DNA of 33,389 nucleotides from Peptococcaceae bacterium (GCA_012839895.1 DUML01000011.1:1-33389), one strand, 5' to 3'. Counted from the first letter of the stretch, positions 10,362 to 32,671 are shown. Translations and numbers: made by a program. Notes: generated from the letters alone by a model not told the origin.

Positions 10362-10420
10362 TTTGGCCACAATGCCAGAGATGGCAACAAGCGGCAACCA
10401 ATGTAAAGTAATTATATTTT

Positions 10421-13624: not shown

Positions 13625-15868
13625 TTATACTTTTACTATTCGGCAAGGAATACCATTATAAGTCCAAGTGCCTACTAAGGGATCGGCTGTCTCAAAATCG
13701 GCATTGGTTAAAATATTGGCGTTAGAGAGCCAAAGGCCGCCAAGATCAGGTTCGGCAGCGGTCATTTCCGGATACCACCAGCCATACTCGACACTGACAA
13801 CATCATCCCGCATCTGCGTCAGCTTAACCTGGAACCGGGCTCTACCCCGTTCAGTCTCAACCCATACCCAAGTGCCTTCTTCCAGCCCTAGACTTTCGGC
13901 TGTTGCCGGGCTAATCTCCACTCTAGGCTCAGGATGGGAAGCCCGGAACTTTTCTATCTGGTGATAATTGGAAGCATAATAAGGTTGGATACGGGCGCCG
14001 CTGATTAATTGGAAGGGATACGCCTCTTTTGTTTCTGCCGGCTGGCTTTGGCCGGCCGGTTTAAGCCCCTCTTGAGGCAGAATATCCGGCTGGGGCAACC
14101 CTTGGGGCTCAGGCAAAGGAGGATAGCCTAATTCAGCCAAGAACTCATTATACAATTCCACTTTACCGCTCTTAGTGCTAAACCCTCGCGGTAAACCTGA
14201 GGTTAAATCAACTTCTTCATGCTTGTAATAGCCGCTGGGCATGTCGTAAATGCCGAACCGGCAGAATTCCTCCCAGCTTACACCCGTCGGTGCCAAACTG
14301 GCTTGCAAACTTTCCAGGTAAGTTTCCCAAGGCCAATATTTTTCCTGGCCGAGCCGCAATCCCAAACCTCGCCAGAAATCATAATCAGGGCGTCGTTCAT
14401 AATAAGGCTGGACTGCTGCCTGGCCGCCGTAAGCGATATTGGCTGTTCCCGCCTTGGTCTCCAGTAAGGGCCTCTCCAAAACCCCGGCACTGGGCAAAAC
14501 ATAATCGGCCAGCATGGCAGTCGGGGTTGGGAATTGTTCCAATACAACCAAAAGGTCAAGGCTTTTAAGAGCTTTGTATATTAAACGGCTATCCGCCTGG
14601 GTTAATAAAGGATTGGATGCCATTACAATCATGGCTCTGATGGGGTAAGGCTTGCCAGTTAGCATAGCCCGCCAAACCAAATTAGGATGAGCGGAGGTCA
14701 AATAACGCATTGGCAGACGTTTACCATGCTTTATTGTCAACTCTCGCAGCCGCTCATAACCTTTATAGGATTGAAGCAACAATCTGTCTTTACCCAGTTG
14801 CTTTTCCCGGTAAACATGTACAAACTGTTCACTAAGTTCCAAATCCAGCTCCGGTATAAAATCCGGCATTTCGCAAATATGCGAAGCTCCCAGTTTATCC
14901 ACGTTGCCTGTGATAGCTCGTAAAATAGCCAAGGCGTGGTGAGTAGGAAAAGTATTGGGTCCTAACTGGTCAATCCCTCTCCCGCTTAATAAGGTAGCAG
15001 GCGAATTTTGCGCAAACAGACGGGCGGCTTTAACGATTTTTTCAGCATTGACACCGGTTAGAGCTTCCACTTTATCCGGCTCATAGGGCCGGACATGTTC
15101 GGACAATTTTGCAAACCCATGGCACCAAGTTTCCACAAACTCTTGGTCATACCACTTATTAGTAATGATTACATGGAGAAGTCCTAAGGCTAAATAGGCA
15201 TCTGTACCCGGCTTAACAGGCAACCACAGAGTTGCCCGCCTAGCGGTACGGGTTCTCCGAGGGTCAACAACAATTAATGGATTACCTTCTCTGGTAAAAT
15301 TCCGGATAGTCTGCCATAACAACGAATTATCCGACTCAGCCGGGTTTACACCCCAAAGTAAAGCACAGGAAGTGAGACCCGGAACCAATTCCATTTCCAA
15401 CGGCCAGCCAAAGGTTAAAGTATTGGCAAAGATCCCGGGATTCCAACAGTTTTGCCCAATCCCCATATTATTAGGGCTGCCAAACAAAGCCAGAAAACGA
15501 TGTAACGGCCAATAGGTAGTATGGGGCGCCCCAATGCTCGTCGCCAAGGTTTCCGGCCCGTATCGGTCTTTGAGATCGGACAACTTGGCGGCAATTTCAT
15601 CCAGCGCCTCGTCCCAGGAGATTTTCTCCCACTTGCCGCTGCCCCGCTCGCCTACTCTTTTGAGAGGATAATTAATCCTTAAGGGATGATCCAGCACTTC
15701 TACAGCCTGTCGCCAGCGCCGGCATCCATTCATAACTTTTTTATCTCCGGGATAACGGTTGGGATCAGGTTTAACCGAGAGAACCCGGCCGCCTTGAACA
15801 GTAGCTATTAAGCCGCATTGATAACCACAAAAACGGCAATTGCTGGGAATATATTTTAATTCTTTCAT
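13625..15868 (-). CDS. Molybdopterin oxidoreductase catalytic subunit (second paralogue of the operon)
   Basis: A 747-residue DMSO-reductase-superfamily subunit expected to bind bis-MGD and one [4Fe-4S] cluster. Cluster ligands are Cys11, Cys14, Cys18 and Cys49. The Mo/W ligand is probably Cys141 (GQNCWNP), placing it with Cys-ligated enzymes (PsrA/PhsA/Nap-like). The N-terminus runs straight into the cluster motif with no Tat signal, so it is probably cytoplasmic. The C-terminal molydop-binding domain starts around residue 620. It shares blocks with the first catalytic subunit of this operon (NYPLKR, KISWDEAL, FGSPN, CW, NILTNADFETADPLVGTW) but is clearly diverged. A Pro/Gln-rich linker lies near residues 575-615. 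AAGGGG lies 8 bases upstream of the ATG. Substrate unknown. Confidence 0.9.
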   Translation of the reverse strand: MKELKYIPSNCRFCGYQCGLIATVQGGRVLSVKPDPNRYPGDKKVMNGCRRWRQAVEVLDHPLRINYPLKRVGERGSGKWEKISWDEALDEIAAKLSDLKDRYGPETLATSIGAPHTTYWPLHRFLALFGSPNNMGIGQNCWNPGIFANTLTFGWPLEMELVPGLTSCALLWGVNPAESDNSLLWQTIRNFTREGNPLIVVDPRRTRTARRATLWLPVKPGTDAYLALGLLHVIITNKWYDQEFVETWCHGFAKLSEHVRPYEPDKVEALTGVNAEKIVKAARLFAQNSPATLLSGRGIDQLGPNTFPTHHALAILRAITGNVDKLGASHICEMPDFIPELDLELSEQFVHVYREKQLGKDRLLLQSYKGYERLRELTIKHGKRLPMRYLTSAHPNLVWRAMLTGKPYPIRAMIVMASNPLLTQADSRLIYKALKSLDLLVVLEQFPTPTAMLADYVLPSAGVLERPLLETKAGTANIAYGGQAAVQPYYERRPDYDFWRGLGLRLGQEKYWPWETYLESLQASLAPTGVSWEEFCRFGIYDMPSGYYKHEEVDLTSGLPRGFSTKSGKVELYNEFLAELGYPPLPEPQGLPQPDILPQEGLKPAGQSQPAETKEAYPFQLISGARIQPYYASNYHQIEKFRASHPEPRVEISPATAESLGLEEGTWVWVETERGRARFQVKLTQMRDDVVSVEYGWWYPEMTAAEPDLGGLWLSNANILTNADFETADPLVGTWTYNGIPCRIVKV

Positions 15869-15890
15869 GGCAATTACCCCTTAAACATAC

Positions 15891-17237
15891 TTAGACTTCG
15901 GAAAGTTTTTGGCCGTGGATATTGGTTAACTGATAGGAACAAAAAGGATACAAGCGGCCATGTTGGTCCGCGACCAGCATGCTGCATTCTCTTAACCTTC
16001 GCAAATCAATAGTCATAGCATCCATATAATTCATTATTACAATAGATATTCCGGGCTCAAGTTCCGGATATCTGCGAACGGCAATATCAGCCAAAACTGA
16101 ACCTTGAGGGCTTTGGTAGTCATAATAATCCCGGTATTCCTGAGGTGTTAGAAAACGAGTAAAAGGTACGATTTGGCCATCTTTTTCAATAAGATAAGTG
16201 GAAGAAGAGCATAAGGGATGGGAGCAGCCTAAAGGCCACAATTCATAAGGGCTTAATAATCCCTTCGTTTGTTCTGTTAAAAGGAACATAACATCCCCCA
16301 TAGTCAGCCGCCGCTCTTGAACTACATCAAAGCGCCCTGAGGTGAAAGCCGGCTGGTAGGCAATCCCGGCAATAACATCCCGGTTCTTTAAAGCAAATTC
16401 TAACACTGCTCCCAGTTGGTCATGATTGACTCCCGAGATTACGGTCATAGCCAGCACCACTTGCAATCCTACCTGGCGGCAGTTCTCAATGGCTTGAAGT
16501 TTACAATTTAATAAATCGGCGCCACGAGTCTTTTGATAGATTTCGCCCCTTAAACCGTCAAATTGTAAAAAGATCCCACTGGCGCCGGCCTCAGCCAGGC
16601 TTTGCACATAAGCCAAATCTTTTCCGGCTCTGAGGCCGTTGGTATTAATCTCAATAGCCGAAAAGCCCAGCTCTCTTCCCAAACGAATAACCCCAGGCAA
16701 ATCATGGTGGGTGGTTGGTTCCCCGCCGGTGATTTGAATGCTGGTCTCAGGCCCGCTTTTCGTAAGAATATCTTTATAAATTTGTTCAATAACATTGAAA
16801 CTAAGGTCCGAAAATTTTTTCGGATCTGCTTGATCGGCTTCCATAAAACAAACCGGGCAACGCATATTACAGCGCTGGGTAACTTCGATTTCAACCAAGG
16901 TTGGCCCCCGGCGGTGGGAGGAACATAAACCGCAATCCAGGGGGCAACCTCGGGAGGGCGAATGAGAAAAGGAGGGGGGTTTTTCAGGAATGCGAAAATT
17001 CTTAGTCCACAAATAATGTTCTACGTCCGGCCAAAGATAAACAGTATATTGACCATGTTCAGGACATACCTTGCGCATGTAAACAGCTTTATCCTGACCT
17101 TGAACAATATCTGCAGGAAGAACCTTTAAACAAACCGGGCAAAGGCTTTCCGTATGGTCCAGTACCAGAAATGGTTCCAAATGAGACGTATCTTGAGACG
17201 GTATTACATTGTTTGATTGCGCGTTTAATTGTGCCAT
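15891..17237 (-). CDS. Radical SAM protein with extra Cys motifs (Tes/TrsS-like)
   Basis: A 448-residue radical SAM enzyme. The SAM cluster motif is CNMRCPVC (about residues 123-130), followed by TGGEP (170-174). Unusually Cys-rich flanks surround it: a rubredoxin-like pair CPVC (33-36) and CPEHG (58-62), a second CxxxCxxC motif CPLDCGLC (98-105), and C-terminal cysteines in GCSHPLCSSS and RECSMLV/PFCSY. This layout matches the group containing archaeal tetraether synthase (Tes) and TrsS, which hold several clusters and a rubredoxin-like iron. It sits between the NrfD gene and the second catalytic subunit, 15 bases after the former. The start is the ATG at 17235-17237 (GGAG 8 bases upstream); a TTG two codons earlier is poorly spaced. 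Role unknown. Confidence 0.82.
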   Translation of the reverse strand: MAQLNAQSNNVIPSQDTSHLEPFLVLDHTESLCPVCLKVLPADIVQGQDKAVYMRKVCPEHGQYTVYLWPDVEHYLWTKNFRIPEKPPSFSHSPSRGCPLDCGLCSSHRRGPTLVEIEVTQRCNMRCPVCFMEADQADPKKFSDLSFNVIEQIYKDILTKSGPETSIQITGGEPTTHHDLPGVIRLGRELGFSAIEINTNGLRAGKDLAYVQSLAEAGASGIFLQFDGLRGEIYQKTRGADLLNCKLQAIENCRQVGLQVVLAMTVISGVNHDQLGAVLEFALKNRDVIAGIAYQPAFTSGRFDVVQERRLTMGDVMFLLTEQTKGLLSPYELWPLGCSHPLCSSSTYLIEKDGQIVPFTRFLTPQEYRDYYDYQSPQGSVLADIAVRRYPELEPGISIVIMNYMDAMTIDLRRLRECSMLVADQHGRLYPFCSYQLTNIHGQKLSEV

Positions 17238-17252
17238 TGCCAAATCTCCCGT

Positions 17253-18179
17253 TTATTTATTGTTCCAGGCCCGTAAGAATTCTTCATCCCCTAAAGGAAG
17301 TCTGGAGCGGTAGTCCAGCTCTCCGGGAAGCCAAGTTCGATCTATATTACCACTTGAAACTACAAGGTTGCGCATTATGAAGCCTCCGATTAAAACCAGA
17401 CAAGCTGCAACCATAGTTAATCCTCTTTGCTCAAAGAATAACAAAATAAACGGCACAAGTGTTCCGGCTAAAAGGAAGCCGTATTTAAAAGGCGCCGCAA
17501 ACTCGCCATTTAACCAACGGCGAGCGGCTACTGCTTCTCTTGTAGTTGTACCGCTGATTTTAACCCAAAGATAGACAAGCCAGACCAAAAATTGGAATGC
17601 TAAGAGCAAAGCTACTGTCAAATTCAGACCGGCAATATTTCCTGCCAAGGAAGAAGTAAAAAGATATGCGCTCAAGAGGTGAGCCGCTCCACCTGTAACC
17701 AAGGAGGAAAGTAAAAAGAGAACCATCATCCCGGGCCCGTTCCAAAACGGCCGCGACTTATGCCTGCCCAATAAAATACCTGGATAGGTAGCGACAATCA
17801 ACCCGGTGATAATACAGATCACAGCACAGAGCTTTCTTAAACCAACCATTTTGCTCCAAGGAAACACATCCAGGCCAAAAGAGGCATAAATGAATCCGAA
17901 ACCAATGGCAAGAGTCATTGTCCAAGCGCCAATTGTTAAAATTGCTTTGGGATTCATAAACACTCGCCAGGCCTGAAAAGGACGGCCAAGCTCCAGGATA
18001 AGAAAACAAGCGCCCAAGCTGATAAAGAGCGGCCCGCAAATATTACCTAAGAGGGAAGTTCCCGCTTCCCCTGGAAGTAAATCGAGAACACCGGCAATAA
18101 GGAGCATCGCTCCGCCCATTCCGGCAAAGAAGAAATCAACAGCCAGCATCCAGCCCCAACCTTCTTCATGATGTTTCAT
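17253..18179 (-). CDS. NrfD/PsrC-type membrane subunit
   Basis: A 308-residue polytopic membrane protein of the NrfD/PsrC family with about eight hydrophobic segments (beginning near residues 11-32, 44-63, 81-102, 115-135, 150-168, 180-205, 230-250 and 255-275). These subunits anchor CISM complexes and exchange electrons with the quinone pool. The early GWGWMLAVDFFFAGMGGAMLL segment is split around the conserved Gly residues of the family. The ribosome binding site GGAGG lies 8 bases upstream of the ATG, in the last codons of the ferredoxin gene, so the two are coupled. Confidence 0.9.
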   Translation of the reverse strand: MKHHEEGWGWMLAVDFFFAGMGGAMLLIAGVLDLLPGEAGTSLLGNICGPLFISLGACFLILELGRPFQAWRVFMNPKAILTIGAWTMTLAIGFGFIYASFGLDVFPWSKMVGLRKLCAVICIITGLIVATYPGILLGRHKSRPFWNGPGMMVLFLLSSLVTGGAAHLLSAYLFTSSLAGNIAGLNLTVALLLAFQFLVWLVYLWVKISGTTTREAVAARRWLNGEFAAPFKYGFLLAGTLVPFILLFFEQRGLTMVAACLVLIGGFIMRNLVVSSGNIDRTWLPGELDYRSRLPLGDEEFLRAWNNK

Positions 18180-18182
18180 GTC

Positions 18183-18737
18183 TTACACCTCCCAACTGTA
18201 AATATAATAGACTTGCGGTTCTGTTCCGAGTTCTGCCAAGAGCCTAATCGAAGGTTCTTTGTTGACAAGCTTAAACACGTCGCTGTCCTTATCATCCAAA
18301 TCCCCAAAAATTCTGGCTTTCTGGTGACAGGTCTTTACACAGAAAGGCAAAAGGCCATCCTCAACTCTCTCCATGCAAAAATCGCATTTTTGGACCGTTC
18401 CCGTCTCTTTGTTGGAAACACGGGCTCCATAAGGACAAGCCATAACACAAGCTTTACAGCCTACACATTTATTTTGGTCTACCCAGACAATTCCGTCCGG
18501 CCTTTGTTGGGAGGCGCCGGTCGGGCAAGCATCAACACAGGGAGGGTTGTCACAGTGCATGCAAAGCAAAGGAATATGCATCATACGCACATGGGGGAAA
18601 ACTCCCTTAGGGCCAACTGTAGTCACCGGATTATAAATCATATCAATCGGCAATTCGTTATGCACACGGCAGGCTACCGTACAGGAATGACAGCCGATAC
18701 AACGTCTGGAATCTATTACTAACGCATAGCGGGCCAT
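18183..18737 (-). CDS. Four-cluster [4Fe-4S] ferredoxin subunit (PsrB/NrfC-like)
   Basis: A 184-residue electron-transfer subunit with sixteen motif cysteines in four groups: CIGCHSCTVAC near residue 13, CMHCDNPPCVDACP near 59, CVGCKACVMACP near 91, and CDFC...CVKTC near 115-135. This is the beta-subunit pattern of CISM enzymes and would wire a catalytic subunit to the NrfD membrane subunit. The start ATG overlaps the stop of the upstream catalytic subunit by one base. Only one such subunit is encoded for the two catalytic subunits in the operon. Confidence 0.95.
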   Translation of the reverse strand: MARYALVIDSRRCIGCHSCTVACRVHNELPIDMIYNPVTTVGPKGVFPHVRMMHIPLLCMHCDNPPCVDACPTGASQQRPDGIVWVDQNKCVGCKACVMACPYGARVSNKETGTVQKCDFCMERVEDGLLPFCVKTCHQKARIFGDLDDKDSDVFKLVNKEPSIRLLAELGTEPQVYYIYSWEV

Positions 18738-20977
18738 TATTTATTCCCCTCCTTTGCCCCATCTTGGACTTTATAAACTTTACACAAAAGACCCCTATTA
18801 GCCCAAGTTCCGCTTAAAGGATCGCAGTCTTCCAGGACTGTACTGGTTAACACATTGGTGTTGGATTCCAAACAGCCTCCTAATTCCGGATCCCGCATAT
18901 CCCTTTCAGGATACCACCAGCCCCGTTGCGTAAATACGACACCCGGGCTGATACCTTCGGTCAAGTGAGCTTTTTGTTTAATGCGTCCCCGTCTGGTTTC
19001 GATCCAGACCCAATCCCCTTCTTCAATACCGTACTCTTTGGCTGTCCTGGGGTTTATCTCCATTTGGGGTTCATGCCTTAAGAAACGAAGTTCTTTAATC
19101 TGAAAATGTTCGGAATGGTGGAAAGGCATTACCCCCGCGCCGGTGGTTAAGACCAACGGATATTCTTTAGCTACCTCCGGATGGTCAATTTCGTTTTCCA
19201 CCGGCGGGATATATGGGGGCAAAGGAGGATATCCCAATTCTTCCAAGACACTGGAATAAAGCTCAATTTTGCCGGATGGGGTTGCGAAACCGCCTTTTTC
19301 TTTATATTTGTAGTATTGTCTCTCCGGGAAGTGGAAGCGGTAATATTCCACAAACTCATCATAGCTTTCCACACCATAGCCTAGGGGCTCAAGGCGGTAA
19401 AGGTAAGCATCTTCCAAAGTTGCCCACGGCCAATGTTCCGCTTGGCCAAGCTTAATCCCTAAATCCCGCCAGAATTCAAAGTCAGTCCGCCGTTCATAGA
19501 GAGGTTGAATAGCCCGCTGGGAAGCCAGTAAAAAGTCTGAACAGCCGTAGGTGGAAGTAATAGTGGGCCGTTCAAAAGAACCGGCAATAGGCAAAACGTA
19601 ATCGGAAAGCATAGCGCATGGCGTCAGCCAATAATCGCAGGTTACCAGGAAATCAACAGCTCGAAGGGCTGCTAAAGTTTTCTGGCTTTCTCCGTAAGAA
19701 TTGACAGGGTTAGTGGCAGAAACAAGTAAAGCTTTAACCGGATAGGGCTTACCGGTGAGAATAGCATTATAAACTGTAGGCGGGTGAGCTTCACACATCC
19801 ACTCAGCGGTGGGAGCTTTACCCCAATATTTTTTCGTCAGTTCGGCAATTCGCCCGTAACCCGGCCAGGTAACCAGTTTAAAACGGTCGGAACCAAGTTG
19901 TTTTGCTTTCTGCTCTTCCGGAAGGTATTCATTTAATTCCATTTCTTCGTCCGTAATAAATTCCTGGCTGGGGCCGGTCAAAAGGTCCGCGCCGGGACAA
20001 TCCAGGTTACCCGTTATAGCACGAAGTATAGCTCTGGCATGCATGGCTGCGCCCGCAGGTTTGCCTTGCTGGTCGATAGCTACACCCCACTGGATATTGC
20101 CAGGCCTATTCATGGCATACATCCTTGCGCCTTCGCGGATTTGCTCGGCACTTAACCAGGTAATCGGTTCCGCCCATTCCGGAGTAAACTGTTCAACATG
20201 AGCCGTCAGTTCATCAAAACCAACACAATTTTCTTGAATAAAGTCGTAATCGCATAATCCTTCATAAATAATGACATGGATCCAAGCCAGGGCTAAAGCC
20301 AGATCCGATCCCGGTCGCAAAGGAAGCCAGAGATCAGCTTTAGCTGCTGTTTCCGTATAACGAGGGTCAATAACAATAACCTTTAGTCCTTTTTCTTTCA
20401 GGGCGCTAATACCGCTCATTTCCGGTAAAGTAGATGCGCCTGGGTTTTGCCCCCATAAGACTATACAACGGCTTAACCCCAAATCGATCTCAAAGGGGCT
20501 CCAACCATAAATAGCTGTTTCCACCATAAAAGTAGGTATCCAACACAAATGAGAATTATGGAAACAATTCGGGCTGCCAAAAAGATTCATAAACCGGCGG
20601 CGAGCCCAGTCATCTGTCCGGGAAGTCCCCCCGGCGGTAGCTACCGCTTCCGCTCCGAACTCGGCCTTTATTGCAGCCAAGCGGTCAGCAATTTCCGTCA
20701 AAGCTTGGTCCCAGGAAATCCTTTCCCATTCCCCGGCACCCCGCTTACCCTTGCGTTTTAAGGGATAATTGACTCTTGCCGGGTGATCGAGATGGATTAA
20801 ATTGACATTACCCCGGCAGCATAACCCTCCCGTATTGGTAGGATAATCCGGATCGCCCTCAAAATGCAGGATCTTGCCATCTTTGACATAAACCAATACT
20901 CCACAGTTTTGATGGCAAAAGTAACAACAGGCTTTTTTAATTTCCAGGCCTTCTTGTTGTAAATCAATTTTTTTCAT
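18737..20977 (-). CDS. Molybdopterin oxidoreductase catalytic subunit (first gene of the operon)
   Basis: A 746-residue DMSO-reductase-superfamily protein. The [4Fe-4S] ligands are Cys18, Cys21, Cys25 and Cys53 or Cys54 (GLCCRG). The likely Mo/W ligand is Cys145 in NSHLCW, as in polysulfide/thiosulfate-reductase-type enzymes. No twin-arginine signal precedes the cluster motif, so the protein should stay in the cytoplasm. The domain order is complete: Fe4S4, molybdopterin core, and a molydop-binding domain from about residue 620. GGAGG lies 6 bases upstream of the ATG. The nearest functional class by motif is PsrA/PhsA-like; acetylene-hydratase-like proteins are related, but the residues I recall as diagnostic for them are not present. 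Substrate unknown. Confidence 0.9.
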   Translation of the reverse strand: MKKIDLQQEGLEIKKACCYFCHQNCGVLVYVKDGKILHFEGDPDYPTNTGGLCCRGNVNLIHLDHPARVNYPLKRKGKRGAGEWERISWDQALTEIADRLAAIKAEFGAEAVATAGGTSRTDDWARRRFMNLFGSPNCFHNSHLCWIPTFMVETAIYGWSPFEIDLGLSRCIVLWGQNPGASTLPEMSGISALKEKGLKVIVIDPRYTETAAKADLWLPLRPGSDLALALAWIHVIIYEGLCDYDFIQENCVGFDELTAHVEQFTPEWAEPITWLSAEQIREGARMYAMNRPGNIQWGVAIDQQGKPAGAAMHARAILRAITGNLDCPGADLLTGPSQEFITDEEMELNEYLPEEQKAKQLGSDRFKLVTWPGYGRIAELTKKYWGKAPTAEWMCEAHPPTVYNAILTGKPYPVKALLVSATNPVNSYGESQKTLAALRAVDFLVTCDYWLTPCAMLSDYVLPIAGSFERPTITSTYGCSDFLLASQRAIQPLYERRTDFEFWRDLGIKLGQAEHWPWATLEDAYLYRLEPLGYGVESYDEFVEYYRFHFPERQYYKYKEKGGFATPSGKIELYSSVLEELGYPPLPPYIPPVENEIDHPEVAKEYPLVLTTGAGVMPFHHSEHFQIKELRFLRHEPQMEINPRTAKEYGIEEGDWVWIETRRGRIKQKAHLTEGISPGVVFTQRGWWYPERDMRDPELGGCLESNTNVLTSTVLEDCDPLSGTWANRGLLCKVYKVQDGAKEGNK

Positions 20978-21195: not shown

Positions 21196-22242
21196 TTAAT
21201 AAAAGCAATGTTTAATAAAGTTTGGTTCCAGGTATAACTTGATTTTTTCCCATGTATCCTTATTTTTTATTAGTCTTCCTTCTTGGCTGTATTCCGTCCA
21301 AGCCATGGCGCACCAAGAAATTGCTCGGAGATAATTAAAAAACTTAAAACTGTTGATTCTCTCTTCCAAGCTATCCAGAGGGATTGCTGTGTTAACCTGG
21401 TCGTTCCCGCCGGCAGTATTAATGCGCCATATAAATTCATCCCGGTAGCGAGCAATGAATTCTCTCTCCTCAGAAGGGCTAAGGATTTTATTGCTTTTCC
21501 ACAGCGTAGTAGTAATGATTAAAAACATGCTTAAATCCTGGGCTGGTTCTCCCCAGATAGGTTTTTCCCAATCAATTAAGTGGCAACTGCCTTTTTCCCT
21601 GTTAACAATAAAGTTGTGAGAGTTGACTTCGGTATTAATTACCGCGTACCAAGGTTCCAGCTTTAAATACTTCTCTTCCTTTTTCTTTTCTTCAGCCTTG
21701 TGCAAAATTTTTTCCAAGAGAGTTCGCACTTCGGGATCAGCCTGAGGAAAATCAAAGTATTGAGGTAAAAGCCGACAAGCTTCCCAATAGACAGTGGAAA
21801 ATGGGCCCTCTCCCTTGATAAGAAAATCTGTTTCTCCAGGAGCAAATTTAAGGCTATGGATACGGGCGAAGGTCTCTGCCGCCTTGGTTAAATCCCGGTC
21901 ATAGTTTAAAGGTTCTCCGGGAAGGTATTCCATTACTAAAAGGCCATAGGGAACTTTATCCAAGCTGTCATCTAGTAAATAAGGTTCAGGGGTTACACCC
22001 GAAACGCTTAATAGCTTTAGGGCTTCATACTCATAAGCTATCTGATTTTTCAAATTCATCTGGGAGCCTGTATTAATTCTAAGAACATATAAACCCCGCC
22101 CGGTCTTAAGCAGATAATTGAGGTTATATTCTCCCTGGGCTAAAAATCCCAAATCAACCTGGTCATCAATTTTAAGCTTCTCTTTAAAGTCTTGGCTATT
22201 TACATAAAACTCAAGTTGCGGAAGCAGTTCTTGCCACAGCAT
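21196..22242 (-). CDS. APH/choline-kinase-fold phosphotransferase
   Basis: A 348-residue protein with the aminoglycoside-phosphotransferase-type kinase fold: LRINTGSQ and EYEAL (Lys/Glu region) in the N-lobe, LLVMEYLPGEPL hinge near residue 101-112, catalytic-loop equivalent NTEVNSHNF at 203-211 and the metal-binding HLIDWEKP at 221-228 (Asp224). The usual catalytic HxD...N loop reads N-x-E...N, with Glu205 where Asp is expected. The start is the ATG at 22240-22242, preceded by AGGTGAG; the longer frame overlaps the ABC ATPase gene by 52 bases. It is last in a transporter cluster, so it may phosphorylate the imported small molecule; this is inference. Confidence 0.8.
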   Translation of the reverse strand: MLWQELLPQLEFYVNSQDFKEKLKIDDQVDLGFLAQGEYNLNYLLKTGRGLYVLRINTGSQMNLKNQIAYEYEALKLLSVSGVTPEPYLLDDSLDKVPYGLLVMEYLPGEPLNYDRDLTKAAETFARIHSLKFAPGETDFLIKGEGPFSTVYWEACRLLPQYFDFPQADPEVRTLLEKILHKAEEKKKEEKYLKLEPWYAVINTEVNSHNFIVNREKGSCHLIDWEKPIWGEPAQDLSMFLIITTTLWKSNKILSPSEEREFIARYRDEFIWRINTAGGNDQVNTAIPLDSLEERINSFKFFNYLRAISWCAMAWTEYSQEGRLIKNKDTWEKIKLYLEPNFIKHCFY

Positions 22243-22265
22243 ACCCTCACCTGCCTGGAAAAAGA

Positions 22266-23432
22266 TTAAGCCCTGCCGCTTTCCAGTTGTTCCGGGTTGA
22301 AATAAACCCTGGACCAATCAATTTCTAAACCTACTTCATTGCCGGGGGCGTAAGCAAAATAATCTTGCCCGTTGGCCAAAAGAGTAAAATTGCCAAAAGC
22401 AACCTTAAAAATACTTTGTCCTGCCAAGAATTTCTTTTCGGTGATTACACCGGTCGGCTTATCCTGACTAGGTCTGGTTACCTTAATATGTTCTGAACGA
22501 ATACAGGCTACCATCCGCCCTCCCTTTTTTAAAGCCGGGACCGTGAAACGGAAGTTTTCAGTCCAAAACTCGCCATCCAGCAAATAGCCGGGCAAAAAAT
22601 TGCAAGGGCCAAAGAGAGAGGCAACCTCTCTGGTCCGGGGCTGATTGTAAATATTAATAGGCGTATCAACTTGTAAGAGCTTGCCATAAGACATAACAGC
22701 AATCCGATCGGCCATCAGCATGGCTTCATCCCGGTCATGGGTAACCAAAACCGTTGTCATTTGCAGCTCCTTATGAAGCCGGAGAATCAGGTCTCTCAAT
22801 TCCTCTCTCAATTTGGGGTCAAGGTTGGACAAAGGCTCATCCAGTAAAACAGTTTTCGGTTCCAAAGCCAAAGCCCTGGCTAAAGATACCCGCTGCTTCT
22901 GTCCTCCGGATAATTGTGATGGGTATTTGTTTTCAATACCTGGAAGTTGAATTAGCTCCAGGAGCTGCCTTGTCTTTTGGATGCGTACTTTTTGGGGACA
23001 ACCGGTCATTTTTAAACCGAAGGCAATATTTTCACCGACAGTTAGATGGGGGAACAGGAGGTTTTCCTGGAAGACCATGACAATATCCCTTTGGCCGGCA
23101 GGCAAAGCAGTAACATCCTGTCCGTCAAGCCAAATACTGCCCGCATCCGGTGGAGTCAATCCTGAAATGAGGCGAAGCAAAGTAGTTTTTCCACAACCGG
23201 AGTGGCCTACTAAAGCCAGCAGTTCACCTTCCTGGATTGTCAAGGAAAGATTTTCAACAGCTATCTCCTGGCCAAATCTCTTGGTAAGATTTTGAAGCCT
23301 TAACTTTGGTTTCCCTTGACCCCCGGCCGTATTTAGACCCTTACCACTGCTTCCCATATTTTCACTCACGTTTCCTAGATCTTTACATATGTTTCCAATA
23401 TCTTTACTTATGTCTCTCATTTTTTTACACAT
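22266..23432 (-). CDS. ABC transporter ATP-binding protein (PotA/YnjD-like)
   Basis: An importer ATPase of ~388 residues. From about residue 43 it has a standard domain: Walker A GHSGCGKTT, Q-loop VFQENLLFPHL, signature LSGGQKQRVSLARAL, Walker B TVLLDEPLSNLD and the switch His in VTHDRDEA, followed by a C-terminal TOBE-like regulatory domain. The first ~38 residues are an unusual heptad repeat encoded by 21-bp DNA repeats (separate entry). The chosen ATG at 23430-23432 has AAAGG 9 bases upstream; a GTG at 23450 and internal Met/Val codons are alternatives. Pairs with the permeases and binding protein upstream. Confidence 0.9.
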   Translation of the reverse strand: MCKKMRDISKDIGNICKDLGNVSENMGSSGKGLNTAGGQGKPKLRLQNLTKRFGQEIAVENLSLTIQEGELLALVGHSGCGKTTLLRLISGLTPPDAGSIWLDGQDVTALPAGQRDIVMVFQENLLFPHLTVGENIAFGLKMTGCPQKVRIQKTRQLLELIQLPGIENKYPSQLSGGQKQRVSLARALALEPKTVLLDEPLSNLDPKLREELRDLILRLHKELQMTTVLVTHDRDEAMLMADRIAVMSYGKLLQVDTPINIYNQPRTREVASLFGPCNFLPGYLLDGEFWTENFRFTVPALKKGGRMVACIRSEHIKVTRPSQDKPTGVITEKKFLAGQSIFKVAFGNFTLLANGQDYFAYAPGNEVGLEIDWSRVYFNPEQLESGRA

Positions 23433-23455
23433 GTCTCTCAACCTTTGCACAGATA
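23351..23455. repeat. Five degenerate 21-bp tandem repeats at the 5' end of the ABC ATPase gene
   Basis: Units start at 23351, 23372, 23393, 23414 and 23435, with the approximate consensus TTCC-A-AT-TTTA--TATGT on the plus strand; the second and third units agree at 18 of 21 bases. Because 21 is a multiple of three, the repeat encodes seven-residue units on the minus strand (MRDISKD, IGNICKD, LGNVSEN, MGSSGKG) ahead of the ATPase domain. Confidence 0.8.
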
Positions 23456-23623
23456 TCTCATGCCTTTATTCCTGTTCCTTCTTCCCTGGACAAGGTACTT
23501 TCTCCCCCCGAATAGATCTCCTTACTCCATCCCTCCTACCCATCTGGCCAAAAATTTTAAATCCTACCTTTTGTATTAAATTGAAGTTAAGTCTTTTGGG
23601 CTGGTTTTAAAAATATAGGTCAG

Positions 23624-24443
23624 TTAAAAATAATAGAATTCCTTTTCCAAATTGCGGCTAATGCCTTTTTCCACAAGGAACATGAAAATTAAGGCAGTAA
23701 GAATAAACACAAAGCTCAGCCCTGCGGCAACAACCCGATCTCCGGAATTTACAAAAGGAAAAAGCAGTAAAGGAAGAGTTACAACATTGCCGCCACCAAT
23801 TAAATAAGTTAAAAAGTATTGGCTAAAGGACACATTAAACATTAAAATTGCCGCTGAAGCCAGTCCCGGGCTTAAAAAAGGCAGCATTACATAGCGAAAG
23901 GTTTGCAGGCGGTTGGCTTTTAACACCCGGGCTTGCTCTGCCCATTTTAAGCCTAAGGCTTGGTAGGTGCTGGCAAAAACACGGACACCATAGGGCAAGG
24001 ACCAGCGGAAGCTGAACAAGAATAACCCCTAATAGCCGGTCGGTGAGATTAAAGCGGATAAATGCCATATGAACGCCCATACCTACAGTAAGCGCAGGAA
24101 TAATAATCGGTACTAAGAGTAAAATTTCAACGAACTTTTTGCCGGGAAATTCATATAAACCGAGAGCCTTTCCGGCAGGAATGCTTAGAATTAAACCCAA
24201 AACCGTAACAGTTAGGGAGATAAAAACGCTTAACCCCAGACTAGTTAGCATTTTACCGGAGGGTGAGAAAAGATACTTCCAACCTCTTAAGCCCAATTCA
24301 GCGGGCAAGAGACTGTCTGCCGGCCAGTTTTGGCTGAAAGACCAGAGGAGCAATACTGCGAAAGGCAAAAGCAAAAACACCAAAAACATTATTAAGATTG
24401 TTTTTTCTATTGTGCATTTTTTCCGGTTTATATTTTTAGACAT
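23624..24443 (-). pseudogene. ABC transporter permease (second), interrupted by a frameshift
   Basis: Two overlapping frames together make one binding-protein-dependent permease of about 270 residues. The 5' part (from 24443) reads to ...LLGVILVQLPLVL, and the 3' part continues in another frame with PYGVRVFASTYQALGLKWAEQA, the EAA-loop region, then four more hydrophobic segments to 23624. The join needs a +1 shift at CTTGCCC, around 23990-24003; one surplus base there (or two missing) explains it. If real, the protein is truncated after about 150 residues and loses the EAA loop that contacts the ATPase. A sequencing error is the main alternative. The start overlaps nothing: the first permease ends 3 bases upstream and GGAG lies 7 bases before the ATG. 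Confidence 0.8.
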
Positions 24444-24446
24444 ACC

Positions 24447-25340
24447 TTAACTCCAGTTGCGAAAATACTTTTTCGTGGACCAGAAATATATAAATACCAA
24501 AAAGGCACACCCCACTGAGATCAAGGTGTTAATCGCCATGGCCAGGGGGCGGTCCAGAAGCTCAGGGGAAATATAATTAAGGTAAGCCCAGACCGATAAA
24601 GTCTTAGGATAAGTTGCCCCTAAAAGGTAAGGCAACTCAAAAGCGCCAAAGGAATAAGCAAAGATAATCACTGAAGCGGAAATTATACTGGGCATGCTTA
24701 AAGGCAAAAGTATATGGAAAAATGTTTGCCGGGAAGAGGCTCCTAAAATTTGCGCCGCTTCCCCTAATTTAGTATCAATTTTTTGGAGAACGGTATAAAC
24801 CATTAAAGTCACAAAAGGGATCTCTTTCCAACAATAGATAAGAATAATACCTACCGCATTCTTGGAATAAAAAAAAGCAGGAAATTCCCCTGTGCCGGAT
24901 AGAAGTCCCAGTTTTAGCATAGCCCTGGCAATTAAGCCTCCTTGGGAGAGGAGAAAAAGAATCATAACGGCTGCAACCAAATGAGGAACGGCCAAGGGGA
25001 ATTTATATAAAAAGGAGGTAAACCTCTGATTGAGCTTGATTTTCAACAGCTGATAGGCTAAAAAAACTCCCAAAACGGTTGAAATAAGAGTGGAAATGAA
25101 AGCAATGTAAAAAGTAAAGCTTAAGGAATGCCAAAACTCCGCCTGGGTAAGTACTTCCTGGTAGTATTTGAAGGAAATTTCCTTGAGACCAACAACCGGG
25201 AAATAACCCAAGCTCATAGTTAAAGCCAGCACAAACCCACCCAGGAAAAAGATTATAATAACCAGCAGAGCCGGAGCTAAATAGAGGTAAGGGAGAATCC
25301 GTTCCCTTCTCAATGTATTGAATAAAGCATACCTCTTCAT
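24447..25340 (-). CDS. ABC transporter permease (first, intact)
   Basis: A 297-residue inner-membrane permease of the PotB/YnjC type with six or more hydrophobic segments (residues ~17-40, 72-95, 110-135, 155-180, 205-230, 265-285). The EAA loop is visible as LGEAAQILGASSRQTFFHILLP around residue 190-210, which couples to the ATPase. A GGTGG lies 9 bases upstream of the ATG. It precedes the frameshifted permease by 3 bases, so the two were co-translated. Confidence 0.92.
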   Translation of the reverse strand: MKRYALFNTLRRERILPYLYLAPALLVIIIFFLGGFVLALTMSLGYFPVVGLKEISFKYYQEVLTQAEFWHSLSFTFYIAFISTLISTVLGVFLAYQLLKIKLNQRFTSFLYKFPLAVPHLVAAVMILFLLSQGGLIARAMLKLGLLSGTGEFPAFFYSKNAVGIILIYCWKEIPFVTLMVYTVLQKIDTKLGEAAQILGASSRQTFFHILLPLSMPSIISASVIIFAYSFGAFELPYLLGATYPKTLSVWAYLNYISPELLDRPLAMAINTLISVGCAFLVFIYFWSTKKYFRNWS

Positions 25341-25424
25341 TGTCGGCTACCACCTTTGCCTCAAATGCTGTCCTTATCCTTACTCTCCCCAGTACCAGCA
25401 GTCGAATAGGCATCCTGCCGGGAG

Positions 25425-25742
25425 CTATTTGACACTAAACCAGGAGCTATAAACCTCATTGCTAAATTCCTTTAAATTCCTAATCAAAGGCATATTTATT
25501 GTCACAGGCCTTTTTCCCATCGGTTCTTCCGTAGGACTATCCGTCAACAAACCCTTTATTAAGTTTTCGGGATTAAGGATTACCGCAACGTAATTATCTT
25601 GAAACAGGCAAGGCTCAACCAAATATACCGCTGCCACAACATCCCAATTGTAAAAACCGTCAATATTAAAATCTTGCATCATTTCGTCAAACCAGTATTG
25701 ACATTTGCCAATGCTTGTCAGAGTGCCCCCATTGTAAGTTTT
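25425..25742 (-). pseudogene. C-terminal remnant of a nucleoside hydrolase-like gene
   Basis: An open frame of about 100 codons without a proper start (first ATG at 25682, no ribosome binding site) lies between the binding-protein and permease genes. Its sequence resembles the C-terminal third of inosine-uridine nucleoside hydrolases: IDGFYNWDVVAAVYLVEP corresponds to the family pattern with an aromatic-x-D-hydrophobic-A-A stretch, followed by YVAVILNPENL and a final EF...Y helix. The N-terminal DxDxxxDD metal-binding part is absent. I read it as a decayed gene; the similarity is by eye only. Confidence 0.5.
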
Positions 25743-27012
25743 ACTTTCCAGCTGGTTTTGCCAAAACTACCTTCTCTTTCCACAATTCCTCTATAACCGG
25801 AATATAACTTGCGGCGATTTCCGGTACTCGATGAGACTGCAGCTCTTCATTGGTTAAGGTAGCTACACCGGGGTCAATAGCTGCCAGTTCCTCCCGGTAT
25901 TCGCTCTCTAATTTGCCAATATCAAGGGCCAATAAATCTCCCCAGTTGGCAGGTTTATATTTACTTATCTGGGCTTCCGGGCTTAAAAGGAAATTGGCTA
26001 AGACCATAGCCCCGAGCTTATTAGGCGCATTAAAGGGTATAGCCAAAAAATGTGTATTGCCTATTGTTCCGGCTTCCCACACAAAGGTTCTAACCGTATC
26101 CGGTAAAAGTCCCTGTTCAATCATCCCGGAAAAAGAAGCCGGGTTGTAGGACATAGTCAAATCTACTTCTCCATCCATAAAAAGCTGGTGCAGCGAAGCA
26201 ATGGCTGACGGATAAGTCTCTCCTTGACGCCAGAGATATGGTTTTAACTCTTGAAAATACTGCCAGAGGGGTTCCAGTTTGCGGTCTAACTCCTCTTTAT
26301 TTACATTTTCGGTATACGGGAAGGATTCATATCCTCCACAAAGCTCATACATTAAATGGCGAACAAAAACACTTCCGGTGAAATCCGGCAATTCAGGGTA
26401 AGTAAATCTTCCCGGGTTTTCTTTCACCCACTGAAGCAATTCCTGGCTGGAGCGAGGAGGATTTTGGACTTTGGCGGTATCATAAGCAAAGACAAATTGA
26501 GCTTTGCCATAAGGGACTTCATAACCTTCGACGGGAAAGCCAAAGTCATAAGCGACATCCGGCTCCAAGGGATCTACATATTTTAAATAATTGGGTATTT
26601 TTTCGGCAAAAGGACCCCAGAGCAAATCCGCTTGACGGGCAGTCCGGAAGTTTTCTCCATTAATCCAGACCAGATCAATACTGCCTTGCTCTTTTCCAGC
26701 CTGTTTTTCCCCAAGAAGTTTATTCAAATACTCATCAGGACCCATCGGCACCCGCTGGACTTTGACCTTAAGCTTTTCTTGCATAGCATTAGCAACATAG
26801 GTATCAACCCAGGTGTTGGTCCTTTCGTCTCCTCCCCACATATAGAAATTAACTGTTGTTCCCGCACTTATTTCCAAGATAGAATCCCAATCCATTTCCA
26901 AAGGGTTATCCTGGTTATTAGCCGGGGCATTTGCCGAGCAGCCTGCTAAAAATAAACTCCCTAATAGCGAAACTGCAAGTAATATTACCAGTATATGTTT
27001 AGCCGCTTTCAT
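25741..27012 (-). CDS. YnjB-like ABC transporter substrate-binding lipoprotein
   Basis: A 423-residue extracytoplasmic solute-binding protein. Residues 1-25 are a lipoprotein signal peptide with lipobox LAGC (Cys25). The mature part follows the E. coli YnjB pattern: NFYMWGGDERTNTWVD, GSIDLVWINGENF, PNYLKYVDP, VPYGKAQFVFAYD, PGRFTYPELPDFTGSVF, and NTHFLAIPFNAPNK near the end. The natural ligand of YnjB-type proteins is not established. AAGGAG lies 8 bases upstream of the ATG. It is first in the transporter operon (binding protein, nucleoside hydrolase remnant, permease, broken permease, ATPase, kinase). Confidence 0.9.
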   Translation of the reverse strand: MKAAKHILVILLAVSLLGSLFLAGCSANAPANNQDNPLEMDWDSILEISAGTTVNFYMWGGDERTNTWVDTYVANAMQEKLKVKVQRVPMGPDEYLNKLLGEKQAGKEQGSIDLVWINGENFRTARQADLLWGPFAEKIPNYLKYVDPLEPDVAYDFGFPVEGYEVPYGKAQFVFAYDTAKVQNPPRSSQELLQWVKENPGRFTYPELPDFTGSVFVRHLMYELCGGYESFPYTENVNKEELDRKLEPLWQYFQELKPYLWRQGETYPSAIASLHQLFMDGEVDLTMSYNPASFSGMIEQGLLPDTVRTFVWEAGTIGNTHFLAIPFNAPNKLGAMVLANFLLSPEAQISKYKPANWGDLLALDIGKLESEYREELAAIDPGVATLTNEELQSHRVPEIAASYIPVIEELWKEKVVLAKPAGK

Positions 27013-27162: not shown

Positions 27163-27957
27163 CTATAGATTTATTGTCATCCCATCATAAGCCAAAGAAA
27201 CTTGGGGGTAATCAAGCAGCTTTTCTTGTAGCTCGCGGACGGTAACCGGAGTACTGTAGTGCATAGCCAGATGAGTAAGAATTGTCTTGCGAGCTTGAAC
27301 TTCTTCACCCAATCTAATGGCTTCCTCAAATGTCATATGGCTGTGAGGGTACCAGTTAGCACCATGGAAAGTGGCATCACAGATAAAATAATCTGCCTGC
27401 CTTACTTTCTCCTGAGTTATTTCCGGTAAGCCGGCAGTATCGGGAAAATAGGCTAAAGTTTTTCCGGACTGTTCAGCTTTCAGGAATAGGCCGGCTGTCG
27501 GGACACTGTGCCGGGCAGGATAAAGGGTAAGCAAAAAATCATTGAAACGGTATTCTTGGCCAAACTGCCAGGCAGTTACCTCCAAAACATCGCTTAAAAA
27601 GGGATATGCCGCTTCAAATTCCACCAAGGCTTCAGAAGGTAGGAATAATTTAAGTGGTTCCATACGTTTAAGCCGAACAAAAAACTCCAGGTCACCCAAT
27701 CCCCCAAAGTGGTCGTAATGCCAATGGGTAAGGAAAACACAAGCTAAAGAACTTATATTTTCTCGCACAAGCTGAGTTCGCAAATCCGGTGAAGCGTCTA
27801 TCAAGATGTTTTCTCCCCCGGTTCGAATAACCGCCCCGCTACGGGTTCGAACTAAAGCTGAGTTTGCCCGCGCTTCCAGGCAAGCAGGACAATCACAAAA
27901 ATATGAAGGTACTCCCGGGCCTGCTCCTGTTCCCAATATTGTAAATGTAACAGTCAT
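27163..27957 (-). CDS. MBL-fold metallo-hydrolase, PhnP-like
   Basis: A 264-residue metallo-beta-lactamase-fold protein. The metal motif THWHYDHFGG (His78, His80, Asp82, His83) is intact, with further ligands in ARHSVPTAG, FPDTAG and THLAMHYS. An N-terminal structural zinc motif CDCPACLEA (Cys21, Cys23, Cys26) is typical of the PhnP group, whose known member hydrolyses cyclic phosphodiesters such as phosphoribosyl 1,2-cyclic phosphate. No other phosphonate genes are nearby, so the actual substrate is open. The start has GGAGG about 7 bases upstream. Confidence 0.85.
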   Translation of the reverse strand: MTVTFTILGTGAGPGVPSYFCDCPACLEARANSALVRTRSGAVIRTGGENILIDASPDLRTQLVRENISSLACVFLTHWHYDHFGGLGDLEFFVRLKRMEPLKLFLPSEALVEFEAAYPFLSDVLEVTAWQFGQEYRFNDFLLTLYPARHSVPTAGLFLKAEQSGKTLAYFPDTAGLPEITQEKVRQADYFICDATFHGANWYPHSHMTFEEAIRLGEEVQARKTILTHLAMHYSTPVTVRELQEKLLDYPQVSLAYDGMTINL

Positions 27958-28188: not shown

Positions 28189-29151
28189 TCAGTAAGAAAT
28201 CTGGATGGCTTTTTCCGGGCATTGTCCCACACAGGTATAGCATAGACTGCATAACTGCGGCTGAATGGCTCTGGCTACCTGCCGGCCGCCTTCCTCTCTA
28301 AGCTCTAAAACTGAAGAGGGACAAAAAGCTACGCACAACCCATCCCCTAAACAGAGCTCTTCGTCAATATAGATTTGAACGGTTTTACTTTCCCTTGAAT
28401 CCTTCGTTTCACTTCGCTTGGAACCAACTTTGTCCAAGACAGGGGGAAGGTACACTTTTCTTCTTTCTTCCGGAATGCTTTTCTGGCTGAGCTTTACTAA
28501 AGATCGGCAAACAGGTTCTAATAATGAAATAGGTATAGAAAAATAAAGTTCAAAATCATTAATCTCACTGGAAGCCCGGACACCGTAACAACCGAAAGAA
28601 ATGTTCATTTCCCCTGTTTTCATCGGTTGGATGACCAGGTCGGCACAAGTGGAATTAAAACCGGAAGTCTTAAATACTTGTCTCTCTCCGCAGGCATAAG
28701 TCTGCGCACAACAAAGCCACATAGCTTGCTCCGGCCACAAAGTTAAAATGACCACATCCGGTTCCCATAAAGCTTCACCTAGGGGGGCGAGCATGGTAGC
28801 TTCGAAACTGCCGGGGGGAAATTCCGGCCGGGTACTGATCATTTTTCGGGCAATTTCCAAGTTCGGTAATTTCTTAAATAATAGATAGAGCTCACCTGAC
28901 CTCAGCTTCTCTGACATAGGCGTAAGACCTAATATGCCTGCCCCATCAGGACAAGCATGGCTCCTTGGCGGCAGAAAGAGACAGTGCCCGCGGCGGGCCA
29001 AACTAATTGATTGGCAGTGCCTAAGAGGAAGCGGAGGCTCCGTCAAACCGGCGGGGCGTTCTTCTCCCGGCCTTAATAAGCGGACGGCAACCGGCTCCCA
29101 GCGTAGGGAAAGGGTATCTTGTAAAATCTTAGTCATTTCTTGATAATTCAT
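28189..29151 (-). CDS. DUF169 domain protein with C-terminal ferredoxin domain
   Basis: A fusion of about 320 residues. The first ~225 residues belong to the DUF169 family of unknown function (WEPVAVRLL start, Cys-rich HCQSISLARRG, CADLVIQPMKTGEMNISFGCYG). After a charged linker (about 230-265), the last ~60 residues are a two-cluster ferredoxin: the second motif CSLCYTCVGQCP is canonical, while the first (CLGDGLCVAFCP) has an Asp where the second cysteine is usual, as in some ferredoxins with Asp-ligated or three-iron clusters. The start is the ATG at 29149-29151, 12 bases after AGGAGG. The gene follows the CCG protein by 8 bases, so they likely act together in electron transfer. Confidence 0.82.
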   Translation of the reverse strand: MNYQEMTKILQDTLSLRWEPVAVRLLRPGEERPAGLTEPPLPLRHCQSISLARRGHCLFLPPRSHACPDGAGILGLTPMSEKLRSGELYLLFKKLPNLEIARKMISTRPEFPPGSFEATMLAPLGEALWEPDVVILTLWPEQAMWLCCAQTYACGERQVFKTSGFNSTCADLVIQPMKTGEMNISFGCYGVRASSEINDFELYFSIPISLLEPVCRSLVKLSQKSIPEERRKVYLPPVLDKVGSKRSETKDSRESKTVQIYIDEELCLGDGLCVAFCPSSVLELREEGGRQVARAIQPQLCSLCYTCVGQCPEKAIQISY

Positions 29152-29159
29152 CTGCTTTT

Positions 29160-30296
29160 CTAACCTCCTGCCACAACTTTTTGCCAAAGTTCCTCTCCTT
29201 GCGGTCCGTCAAATATTTTTCTAGCTTGGATTTTGACTTGGCTATAGTCTTCATCCAAGCCGGATAAGAGATTAAGGACATGCCGGATTTTCAGCTGAGC
29301 ATCATTAGGTATCCGAGCAAGATTTAAGACACAGGCCAGGCAATAGCCTGCTAGAATAGTAGCTCCACAATCCTTGGCTTCTTTCAGGCGGCTTTTTATA
29401 AGCTCTTCGGCGAGATCCGGACGGGTATGGCTTATCTGTCCGCCACTTCCACAGCAGATGGAATACTCCCGGTTGTGTTCCATCTCGGCAATTTTATAGC
29501 CTTTTCGCTTTAAGGCTTCTCTGGCTTGCCGGGCAAAAATACCCTGCCAGCGGTCGGGACAAGAATCATGAATAGTAATCAGTTCTTCCTTTTCGGGCAT
29601 TAAAGGCAACCTCCAAAGCTTGCTAGCAGCTAAGGCTTGGTAAACCGTGAGCACCTTAATCTGGGTAGGAGCAAGCAGCGGTTGCAATTGATAAAAACAA
29701 TTAGGGCAAGCGACAACCAAATAACGTACTTGCAGGCGGTCAAACTTTTCTGCCAACTTTTTAAGATAGTTGTCGCCCCTTTGCTGCAACCCCAGTTGAT
29801 AAAGAGGCAAGCCACAGCAATCGGAAACAAGAGTAATTTCCGGGTATACTGTCTCAAGTTGATAGTAAAGCCCTTTGGTTAAGAGGGGTGAATAAGTGAG
29901 CATCGTGCAACCCGGGAAGAAAGCTGCCACGCCTTGAGTGTTAAGCCTTAAGTTCTCATAGCCAATGCCATAGGCCTCCCGGTAAGCAGAATTGACATTG
30001 TAGGGACGGTCTGGAAGCAAATAACTAAAATCATCTATCTCAAGCAAACCCTGGTCGACCGCTTGTTTTCTGGTTAATCTGAACAACTCCTGGGGACTTA
30101 GATTTAGCGGACAAACCCTTGCACACAAACCACAAAGGCTGCAGGAATAGGCCTCTTCTACCCGCGGCCCTCTTAAGGCAATACTGGCAATATCCTCGCC
30201 TATTTCCTGAAGGAAAGGACACTCCTTTATACACAACCCGCAACTGCTGCATTTCTCACTAAGATCCTTCTTAAGCTTTTGCAGTTCTCTTTCCAT
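29160..30296 (-). CDS. HdrD/GlpC-like iron-sulfur protein with two CCG domains
   Basis: A protein of about 378 residues. The N-terminus has two [4Fe-4S] motifs (CSSCGLCIKECP and CSLCGLCARVCP). Two CCG (DUF3400/HdrD-type) domains follow, both complete: GCTMLTYSP, SDCCGLP, CPNC, then HDSCPDRWQG, ICCGSGGQ, CLAC. Such proteins form the heterodisulfide-reductase-like active site or an electron relay; without other Hdr subunits nearby, the acceptor is unknown. GTG at 30308 and ATG codons at 30302 and 30296 are possible starts; the last has GGGG 6 bases upstream. Confidence 0.87.
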   Translation of the reverse strand: MERELQKLKKDLSEKCSSCGLCIKECPFLQEIGEDIASIALRGPRVEEAYSCSLCGLCARVCPLNLSPQELFRLTRKQAVDQGLLEIDDFSYLLPDRPYNVNSAYREAYGIGYENLRLNTQGVAAFFPGCTMLTYSPLLTKGLYYQLETVYPEITLVSDCCGLPLYQLGLQQRGDNYLKKLAEKFDRLQVRYLVVACPNCFYQLQPLLAPTQIKVLTVYQALAASKLWRLPLMPEKEELITIHDSCPDRWQGIFARQAREALKRKGYKIAEMEHNREYSICCGSGGQISHTRPDLAEELIKSRLKEAKDCGATILAGYCLACVLNLARIPNDAQLKIRHVLNLLSGLDEDYSQVKIQARKIFDGPQGEELWQKVVAGG

Positions 30297-32670: not shown

Positions 32671-32671
32671 T

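Follow-up and report, generated by a model that had tools for sequence, protein, structure and literature searches.

Two acetylene-hydratase-family Mo/W enzymes (CAT1 and CAT2) are encoded together with a ferredoxin subunit (FD), an NrfD-type membrane subunit and a radical SAM protein (rSAM) in a five-gene module that recurs in at least five phyla (Bacillota, Desulfobacterota, Chloroflexota, Acidobacteriota and Coriobacteriia), and CAT1 and CAT2 form an ancient two-enzyme system that is almost always inherited as a pair. We analysed the module in a 33,389-nucleotide stretch of DNA from a Peptococcaceae bacterium (GCA_012839895.1 DUML01000011.1), here called the window. The evidence, which comes from sequence, favours CAT1 as the partner of FD and NrfD and CAT2 as the partner of the radical SAM protein. 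The complete model, to which we give an even chance, is of a conserved cross-phylum Mo/W module made of two co-inherited sub-assemblies that serve one pathway and act on a hydroxylated, probably aromatic, acid.

The five genes lie on the minus strand in the order CAT1-FD-NrfD-rSAM-CAT2, and all five open reading frames proposed in an earlier, sequence-only reading of the window were borne out. CAT1 (18737..20977) is an acetylene-hydratase-family Mo/W bis-MGD catalytic subunit of 746 residues with a C-x2-C-H motif. It is followed by FD (18183..18737; 184 residues), the NrfD-type membrane quinone subunit (17253..18179; 308 residues; PF03916, 85 bits), rSAM (15891..17243; 450 residues, TTG start) and CAT2 (13625..15868), a second catalytic subunit of the same family with 747 residues and a C-x2-C-G motif. 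The junctions consist of a 1-base overlap and then of 3, 9 and 22 bases between genes, and such tiny junctions fit one operon; promoter and terminator sites predicted in the operon were no more numerous than in shuffles. Pfam searches identified PF00384, PF01568 and PF04879 in both CAT1 and CAT2, Fer4_11 in FD, NrfD in the membrane subunit, and Radical_SAM together with an HMPTM zinc ribbon in rSAM. The 16 cysteines of FD fall into four groups, matching four [4Fe-4S] sites. CAT1 would thereby belong to a complex iron-sulfur molybdoenzyme (CISM), as a bis-MGD subunit with an N-terminal [4Fe-4S] motif, a four-cluster ferredoxin and a membrane quinone subunit are encoded together.

CAT1 and CAT2 are 44% identical, which upholds their description as diverged paralogues, and the cysteine metal ligand is followed by tryptophan in both (C145-W146 in CAT1 and C141-W142 in CAT2). 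Neither large subunit has a Tat signal and none can be restored by correcting the start. The first cluster cysteine is residue 18 in CAT1 and residue 11 in CAT2, and the upstream in-frame stop is only 7 and 4 codons before the start, respectively, so that neither protein can carry one. Our analysis supports the earlier view of two cytoplasmic, functionally linked enzymes with an unrecognised substrate. The accompanying statement that CISM operons carry one catalytic subunit holds with a known exception, ynfEFGH-dmsD, which encodes both YnfE and YnfF (PMC5203670).

Among 101 related genomes, CAT1 orthologues (70-88% identity) were found in 15, and 13 of these also encode CAT2; in the remaining two (G008 and G052) the contig stops inside the radical SAM gene, just short of CAT2. 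Neither enzyme was found in the other 86 genomes. An rSAM query of the same 101 genomes recovered orthologues in 13 others (about 55-63% identity), and their neighbourhoods contain the same module genes as far as the contigs extend. A wider scan across phyla, with one genome per species, located the module in Desulfosporosinus, Selenomonadales, Desulfuromonadaceae, Malonomonas, Desulfuromusa, Anaerolineales, Acidobacteriota and many Coriobacteriia, the last including Gordonibacter pamelaeae, Adlercreutzia and Raoultibacter. Judging from contigs present in both genome collections, the window belongs to the same taxonomic order as Desulfosporosinus. The occurrences in 149 Coriobacteriia genomes are nested (CAT1 in 5, CAT2 in 6, rSAM in 6), and genomes chosen for the rSAM gene have CAT1 in 18 of 20 cases, 17 as full-length orthologues and one as a partial one. 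In the Coriobacteriia genome G256 and the rumen genome G116, CAT2 and rSAM are present and CAT1 was not found. The gene-neighbourhood check suggested earlier therefore returned the same five genes in many genomes from several phyla, and CAT2 is not confined to a place beside the operon in one genome. A genome-specific juxtaposition of the five genes is ruled out by this co-occurrence in relatives and in other phyla. Co-inheritance in at least five phyla, human-gut Gordonibacter included, points to an uncharacterised anaerobic pathway and not to a quirk of a single genome. The constituent families are already known and the module is a variant of CISM systems; a description of the conserved five-gene combination was not found in the papers searched, which were open-licence PMC texts and give weak evidence of absence.

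To define how the module is organised we surveyed gene order in 85 loci, with a gap criterion of 300 bp for each pair. CAT1 and FD are separated by less than 300 bp in 47 of 48 pairs and FD and NrfD in 55/55, while CAT2 comes that close to NrfD in only 4 of 50 cases and to rSAM in 21 of 63. Coriobacteriia have the genes arranged as CAT1-FD-NrfD-(CCG)-CAT2-DUF2064-rSAM-DUF169, and in Acidobacteriota G102 and Malonomonas G103 about 20 kb lie between CAT1 and CAT2. For 29 non-redundant loci we also compared evolutionary distances by partial correlation, with 500 subsamples. FD distances correlate with those of CAT1 at 0.35 versus 0.12 with CAT2, and rSAM distances with those of CAT2 at 0.44 versus 0.12 with CAT1; the contrasts hold in about 97% and 96% of subsamples, respectively, and both persist outside Coriobacteriia. 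NrfD does not discriminate (0.17 with CAT1, 0.20 with CAT2). Because the distances depend on one another and physical complexes cannot be proved from them, these correlations are support and not proof. Gene order and distance correlations together split the module into CAT1-FD-NrfD and CAT2-rSAM.

The sequence-only reading had instead proposed that both catalytic subunits share one ferredoxin and one NrfD subunit. We judge it unlikely that CAT1 and CAT2 dock, as alternatives or jointly, on the same FD-NrfD pair. Such sharing would accord with the order CAT1-FD-NrfD-rSAM-CAT2 on one strand with tiny gaps, seen in the window and nine other loci, and with the placement of CAT1 and CAT2 on one strand in 43/43 loci. 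There is also a precedent in ynfEFGH-dmsD, where YnfE and YnfF are believed to work with a single YnfG-YnfH (PMC5203670). This Escherichia coli / Salmonella system likewise has two catalytic paralogues, one ferredoxin and one membrane subunit in one operon, but it is of the Tat-exported DMSO-reductase type, has a dedicated chaperone and lacks a radical SAM protein, and YnfE and YnfF are 71% identical compared with 44% for CAT1 and CAT2. Sharing is left unsupported by our data, as CAT2 lies apart from FD-NrfD in Acidobacteriota and Malonomonas, accompanies rSAM where no CAT1 was found (G256 and G116), and FD distances follow CAT1 rather than CAT2.

The locus is larger than five genes: a conserved accessory block occupies positions 27163-33151 of the window. 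The core drawn in the sequence-only reading stands; this block and a third acetylene-hydratase-family enzyme had been missed. The genes of the block, all on the minus strand, encode a GNAT acetyltransferase (32672..33151), a DUF2064 / TIGR04282-like protein with a CofC-like nucleotidyltransferase or glycosyltransferase fold (31828..32685), an RpoN (sigma-54)-like protein recognised by eye (30420..31808; also in G005, G008, G021 and G023), a CCG-domain Fe-S protein of the GlpC/TfrB-like dicluster kind (29160..30308), a DUF169 and ferredoxin domain protein (28189..29187) and an MBL-fold, PhnP/PqqB-like hydrolase (27163..27957), the last two being conserved at module loci. DUF2064 and GNAT co-occur with CAT1/CAT2, each being present in 14/15 genomes with CAT1 and in 0/86 others, and the CAT1 genome without orthologues of either is 67% complete. 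The CCG protein is found in 14/15 CAT1 genomes versus 1/86 others and adjoins rSAM/CAT2 in Desulfuromusa, Anaerolineales, Coriobacteriia and Acidobacteriota. A single run, MBL-CAT1-FD-NrfD-CCG-rSAM-CAT2-DUF2064-DUF169-flavin reductase-GNAT, is present in Desulfuromusa and Anaerolineales. Upstream of CAT1, also on the minus strand, are an APH/choline-kinase-family kinase (21196..22317), near the module also in G008, G019, G027, G049 and G057, and an ABC transporter (22266..27012; ATPase at 22266-23450, permeases at 23624-25340, YnjB-type binding protein at 25741-27012) that lies near the module in two Desulfosporosinus genomes as well.

Several smaller features of these neighbourhoods were observed. 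Among the ABC transporter genes, that for the second permease (window 23624-24443) is split over two overlapping frames of 202 and 131 residues, and the intact permease of a relative matches both with a break near 24000-24030, indicating a frameshift or an assembly error. An inosine-uridine-type nucleoside hydrolase is encoded near the module at L174:4340-5239, where it adjoins an ABC transporter and an APH-family kinase, and also at L053, L061 and L172; its substrate could be a nucleoside that radical SAM chemistry sets free. A flavin oxidoreductase of the old-yellow-enzyme family (NamA/BaiCD-like) is encoded repeatedly in the accessory block (L171:3408-4409, L170, L182, L185, L188 and L063).

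The radical SAM protein is sister to TrsS (about 37% identity) and related to the tetraether lipid synthase Tes. It keeps the motifs C-x2-C-x21-C-x2-H, C-x3-C-x2-C-x2-H and CX3CX2C, and the rubredoxin-like, N-cluster and RS cluster motifs are invariant in 12/12 orthologues. The C-terminal cysteine is conserved and the labile methionine ligand position is Met in 10 of 12 and Glu in two. Scores for the TrsS family (NF045646, cut-off 490 bits) are 387 bits for the window protein and 377 bits for that of Desulfuromusa, compared with 646-696 bits for true TrsS proteins of relatives; for Tes (NF045702, cut-off 450 bits) the score is 314 bits. The rSAM protein therefore falls below both cut-offs. Tes ranked first in a fold search with an AlphaFold model of rSAM (pLDDT 73), and Tes/GDGT-MAS (7tol) is also the best PDB sequence match. 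Three motifs of Tes, for the rubredoxin-like site, the N-terminal cluster and the RS cluster, are kept by rSAM, but rSAM is bacterial and encoded in Mo-enzyme loci. The TrsS loci of relatives (L164-L169) bring together genes for a xanthine-oxidase-type Mo hydroxylase and for CCG dicluster, C-GCAxxG, methyltransferase, CoA-ligase-like, XdhC-like and NTP-transferase-like proteins, several of which, the XdhC-like and NTP-transferase-like ones among them, were recognised by eye from sequence. TrsS systems thus resemble the module in that CCG dicluster and NTP-transferase-like proteins and a Mo enzyme accompany a sister radical SAM protein; they differ in that the Mo enzyme is of the xanthine oxidase family and that methyltransferase and CoA-ligase-like genes replace DUF2064, GNAT and the CISM. 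By analogy, this parallel suggests a general link of the rSAM clade with Mo enzymes.

Two tentative proposals follow for this arm of the module. The first, which we regard as rather improbable, is that rSAM, DUF2064 and GNAT form a maturation or cofactor arm that modifies the Mo/W cofactor or the active site and not the pathway substrate. The recurrence of the trio of radical SAM, nucleotidyltransferase-like and CCG proteins beside a Mo enzyme of another family in the TrsS loci speaks for it, as do the moeA, moaC, mobA/B and MOSC genes seen by eye to flank many module copies; but molybdopterin genes adjoin many Mo enzymes, and a modified cofactor would be a candidate read from gene context. 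The old assignment of MJ0619, which is of the same fold family as rSAM, as a pterin methylase could moreover not be reproduced, the protein being a lipid C-C coupling enzyme instead (PMC9433317), and pterin methylation by rSAM, suggested by its HMPTM domain name, is weakened for that reason. The second proposal, which we hold with similarly low confidence, is that the same three proteins build a small molecule or modified cofactor needed by CAT1, CAT2 and the third family member CAT3, paralleled by TrsS for xanthine-oxidase-type Mo enzymes. If true, it would mean an unrecognised anaerobic pathway in at least five phyla in which radical SAM chemistry is paired with acetylene-hydratase-family Mo/W catalysis.

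For both CAT1 and CAT2 the best PDB match is acetylene hydratase (Syntrophotalea acetylenica, 2e7z; E 1e-134 and 2e-114, respectively), at about 35-37% identity. In a maximum-likelihood tree, run as had been suggested, the CAT1 clade (18 rows) and the CAT2 clade (20 rows) are each monophyletic with SH-aLRT of 100, acetylene hydratase is the closest characterised relative of both, and a third group stands apart; a larger FastTree likewise recovered the CAT1 clade. The remaining members of the acetylene hydratase subfamily are without biochemical characterisation according to a 2025 review (PMC12096430). The four cluster cysteines and the metal-ligand cysteine followed by tryptophan are invariant in 44 CAT1 and 55 CAT2 sequences. 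The position of acetylene hydratase Asp13 is occupied by His in all 44 CAT1 and by Gly in all 55 CAT2 sequences, and that of Ile142 by Trp in every one of them. Position 295 is Arg in CAT2, and Arg606 is kept in CAT2 and nearly always Gly in CAT1. Positions 612 and 614 are His and Glu in CAT1, like most relatives, whereas CAT2 has Ala in 54/55 sequences at the former and mostly Met or Ser at the latter. An AlphaFold model of CAT2 had a pLDDT of 51, too low for pocket inspection, and was left unused.

Given the best PDB match and the tree, one or both large subunits could be read as acetylene hydratase, with which they share domains, the cluster motif and the cysteine metal ligand. We consider this exceedingly unlikely. 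The Asp13-to-Ala variant of acetylene hydratase is inactive (PMC12096430). Since the required aspartate is replaced by His or Gly, CAT1 and CAT2 are not acetylene hydratases; the function is ruled out by the Asp13 and Ile142 replacements. The known enzyme is also monomeric and has no FD-NrfD partners, and it lies in a separate clade. One other protein, in the relative G005 (L149; C76:8912-11059), groups with 2e7z at full support, has Asp after the second cluster cysteine and is a candidate true acetylene hydratase. That CAT2 and rSAM come from another pathway and adjoin CAT1-FD-NrfD by accident is just as improbable: the two blocks are physically apart in a few genomes, but co-occurrence is near-perfect in two independent genome sets, and chance is excluded because the same genes are found together in five phyla.

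The catechol dehydroxylases, which we take to be relatives of the acetylene hydratase subfamily, comprise membrane (Dadh, Hcdh and Cadh) and soluble (Dodh and Cldh) types. Compared with the module by their published description, they are acetylene-hydratase-related, and no radical SAM protein or second catalytic subunit is described for them (PMC7028382). The membrane type pairs a 4Fe-4S subunit with a membrane anchor, as in CAT1-FD-NrfD, but its enzymes carry Tat signals and are exported (PMC7028382), a layout from which CAT1 departs in having no such signal. The soluble type, with no Tat signal, a small 4Fe-4S protein and MFS transporters (PMC7028382), has its counterpart in CAT3 and not in CAT1 or CAT2. 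CAT3 is a more distant acetylene-hydratase-family enzyme encoded on contig C61 of the window's genome (G000; L186:4339-6579) next to a 111-residue ferredoxin, two MFS transporters and a sigma-54 regulator, and CAT3, small ferredoxin and MFS transporters together match the gene layout of Gordonibacter Dodh and Cldh (PMC7028382). Orthologues of CAT3 (72-85% identity) are present in nine other CAT1-bearing relatives, with two copies in G005, and one is found in Acidobacteriota G102; they often lie 5-20 kb from the module. The search threshold leaves the presence of CAT3 in genomes without CAT1 in some doubt. MFS transporters adjoin CAT3 more than CAT1/CAT2, and in the window's genome, G031, Acidobacteriota and Malonomonas the best model for the MFS protein near CAT3 is aromatic acid/H+ symport, at 283-349 bits and thus below the curated cut-off of 418.6 bits for that family.

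In the model that we favour, the first sub-assembly, CAT1-FD-NrfD, would be a cytoplasm-facing CISM in which NrfD and the four FD clusters carry electrons between the quinone pool and the CAT1 Mo/W site. The second would comprise CAT2 with the radical SAM enzyme, DUF2064 and GNAT, and the CCG and DUF169-ferredoxin proteins are its likely electron carriers. CAT1 and CAT2 are ancient paralogues within the acetylene hydratase family, and their different fixed active sites most likely mean that each has its own step or its own substrate in a single pathway. By analogy with the catechol dehydroxylases, the chemistry may be the reductive removal or shuffling of hydroxyls on a hydroxylated, probably aromatic, acid, a proposal made mainly because the CAT3 layout resembles the soluble Gordonibacter enzymes; the radical SAM enzyme would make or alter a pathway intermediate. 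Against this model, several neighbours (DUF2064, GNAT, the MBL hydrolase, the kinase and the nucleoside hydrolase) seem to fit biosynthesis better than catabolism.

With this module, the acetylene hydratase subfamily gains two invariant members that almost always occur as a pair, with active sites unlike that of acetylene hydratase and with fixed partners. The same gene set occurs in Gordonibacter and Adlercreutzia of the gut as well as in other anaerobes, and the question of its substrate is testable in hosts that can be cultured, such as Desulfosporosinus fructosivorans, Desulfuromusa kysingii and Gordonibacter pamelaeae. A second question is raised by the recurrent linkage of the rSAM clade to two different Mo-enzyme families. 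Two further observations concern single regions. CAT1 of Coriobacteriia (for example L113:1149-4043) is extended at its C-terminus by ~200 residues, with residues 912-945 giving an OCRE-like match, and window positions 9702-10401 contain two overlapping open reading frames that by eye resemble a MazF/NdoA-type toxin and its antitoxin.
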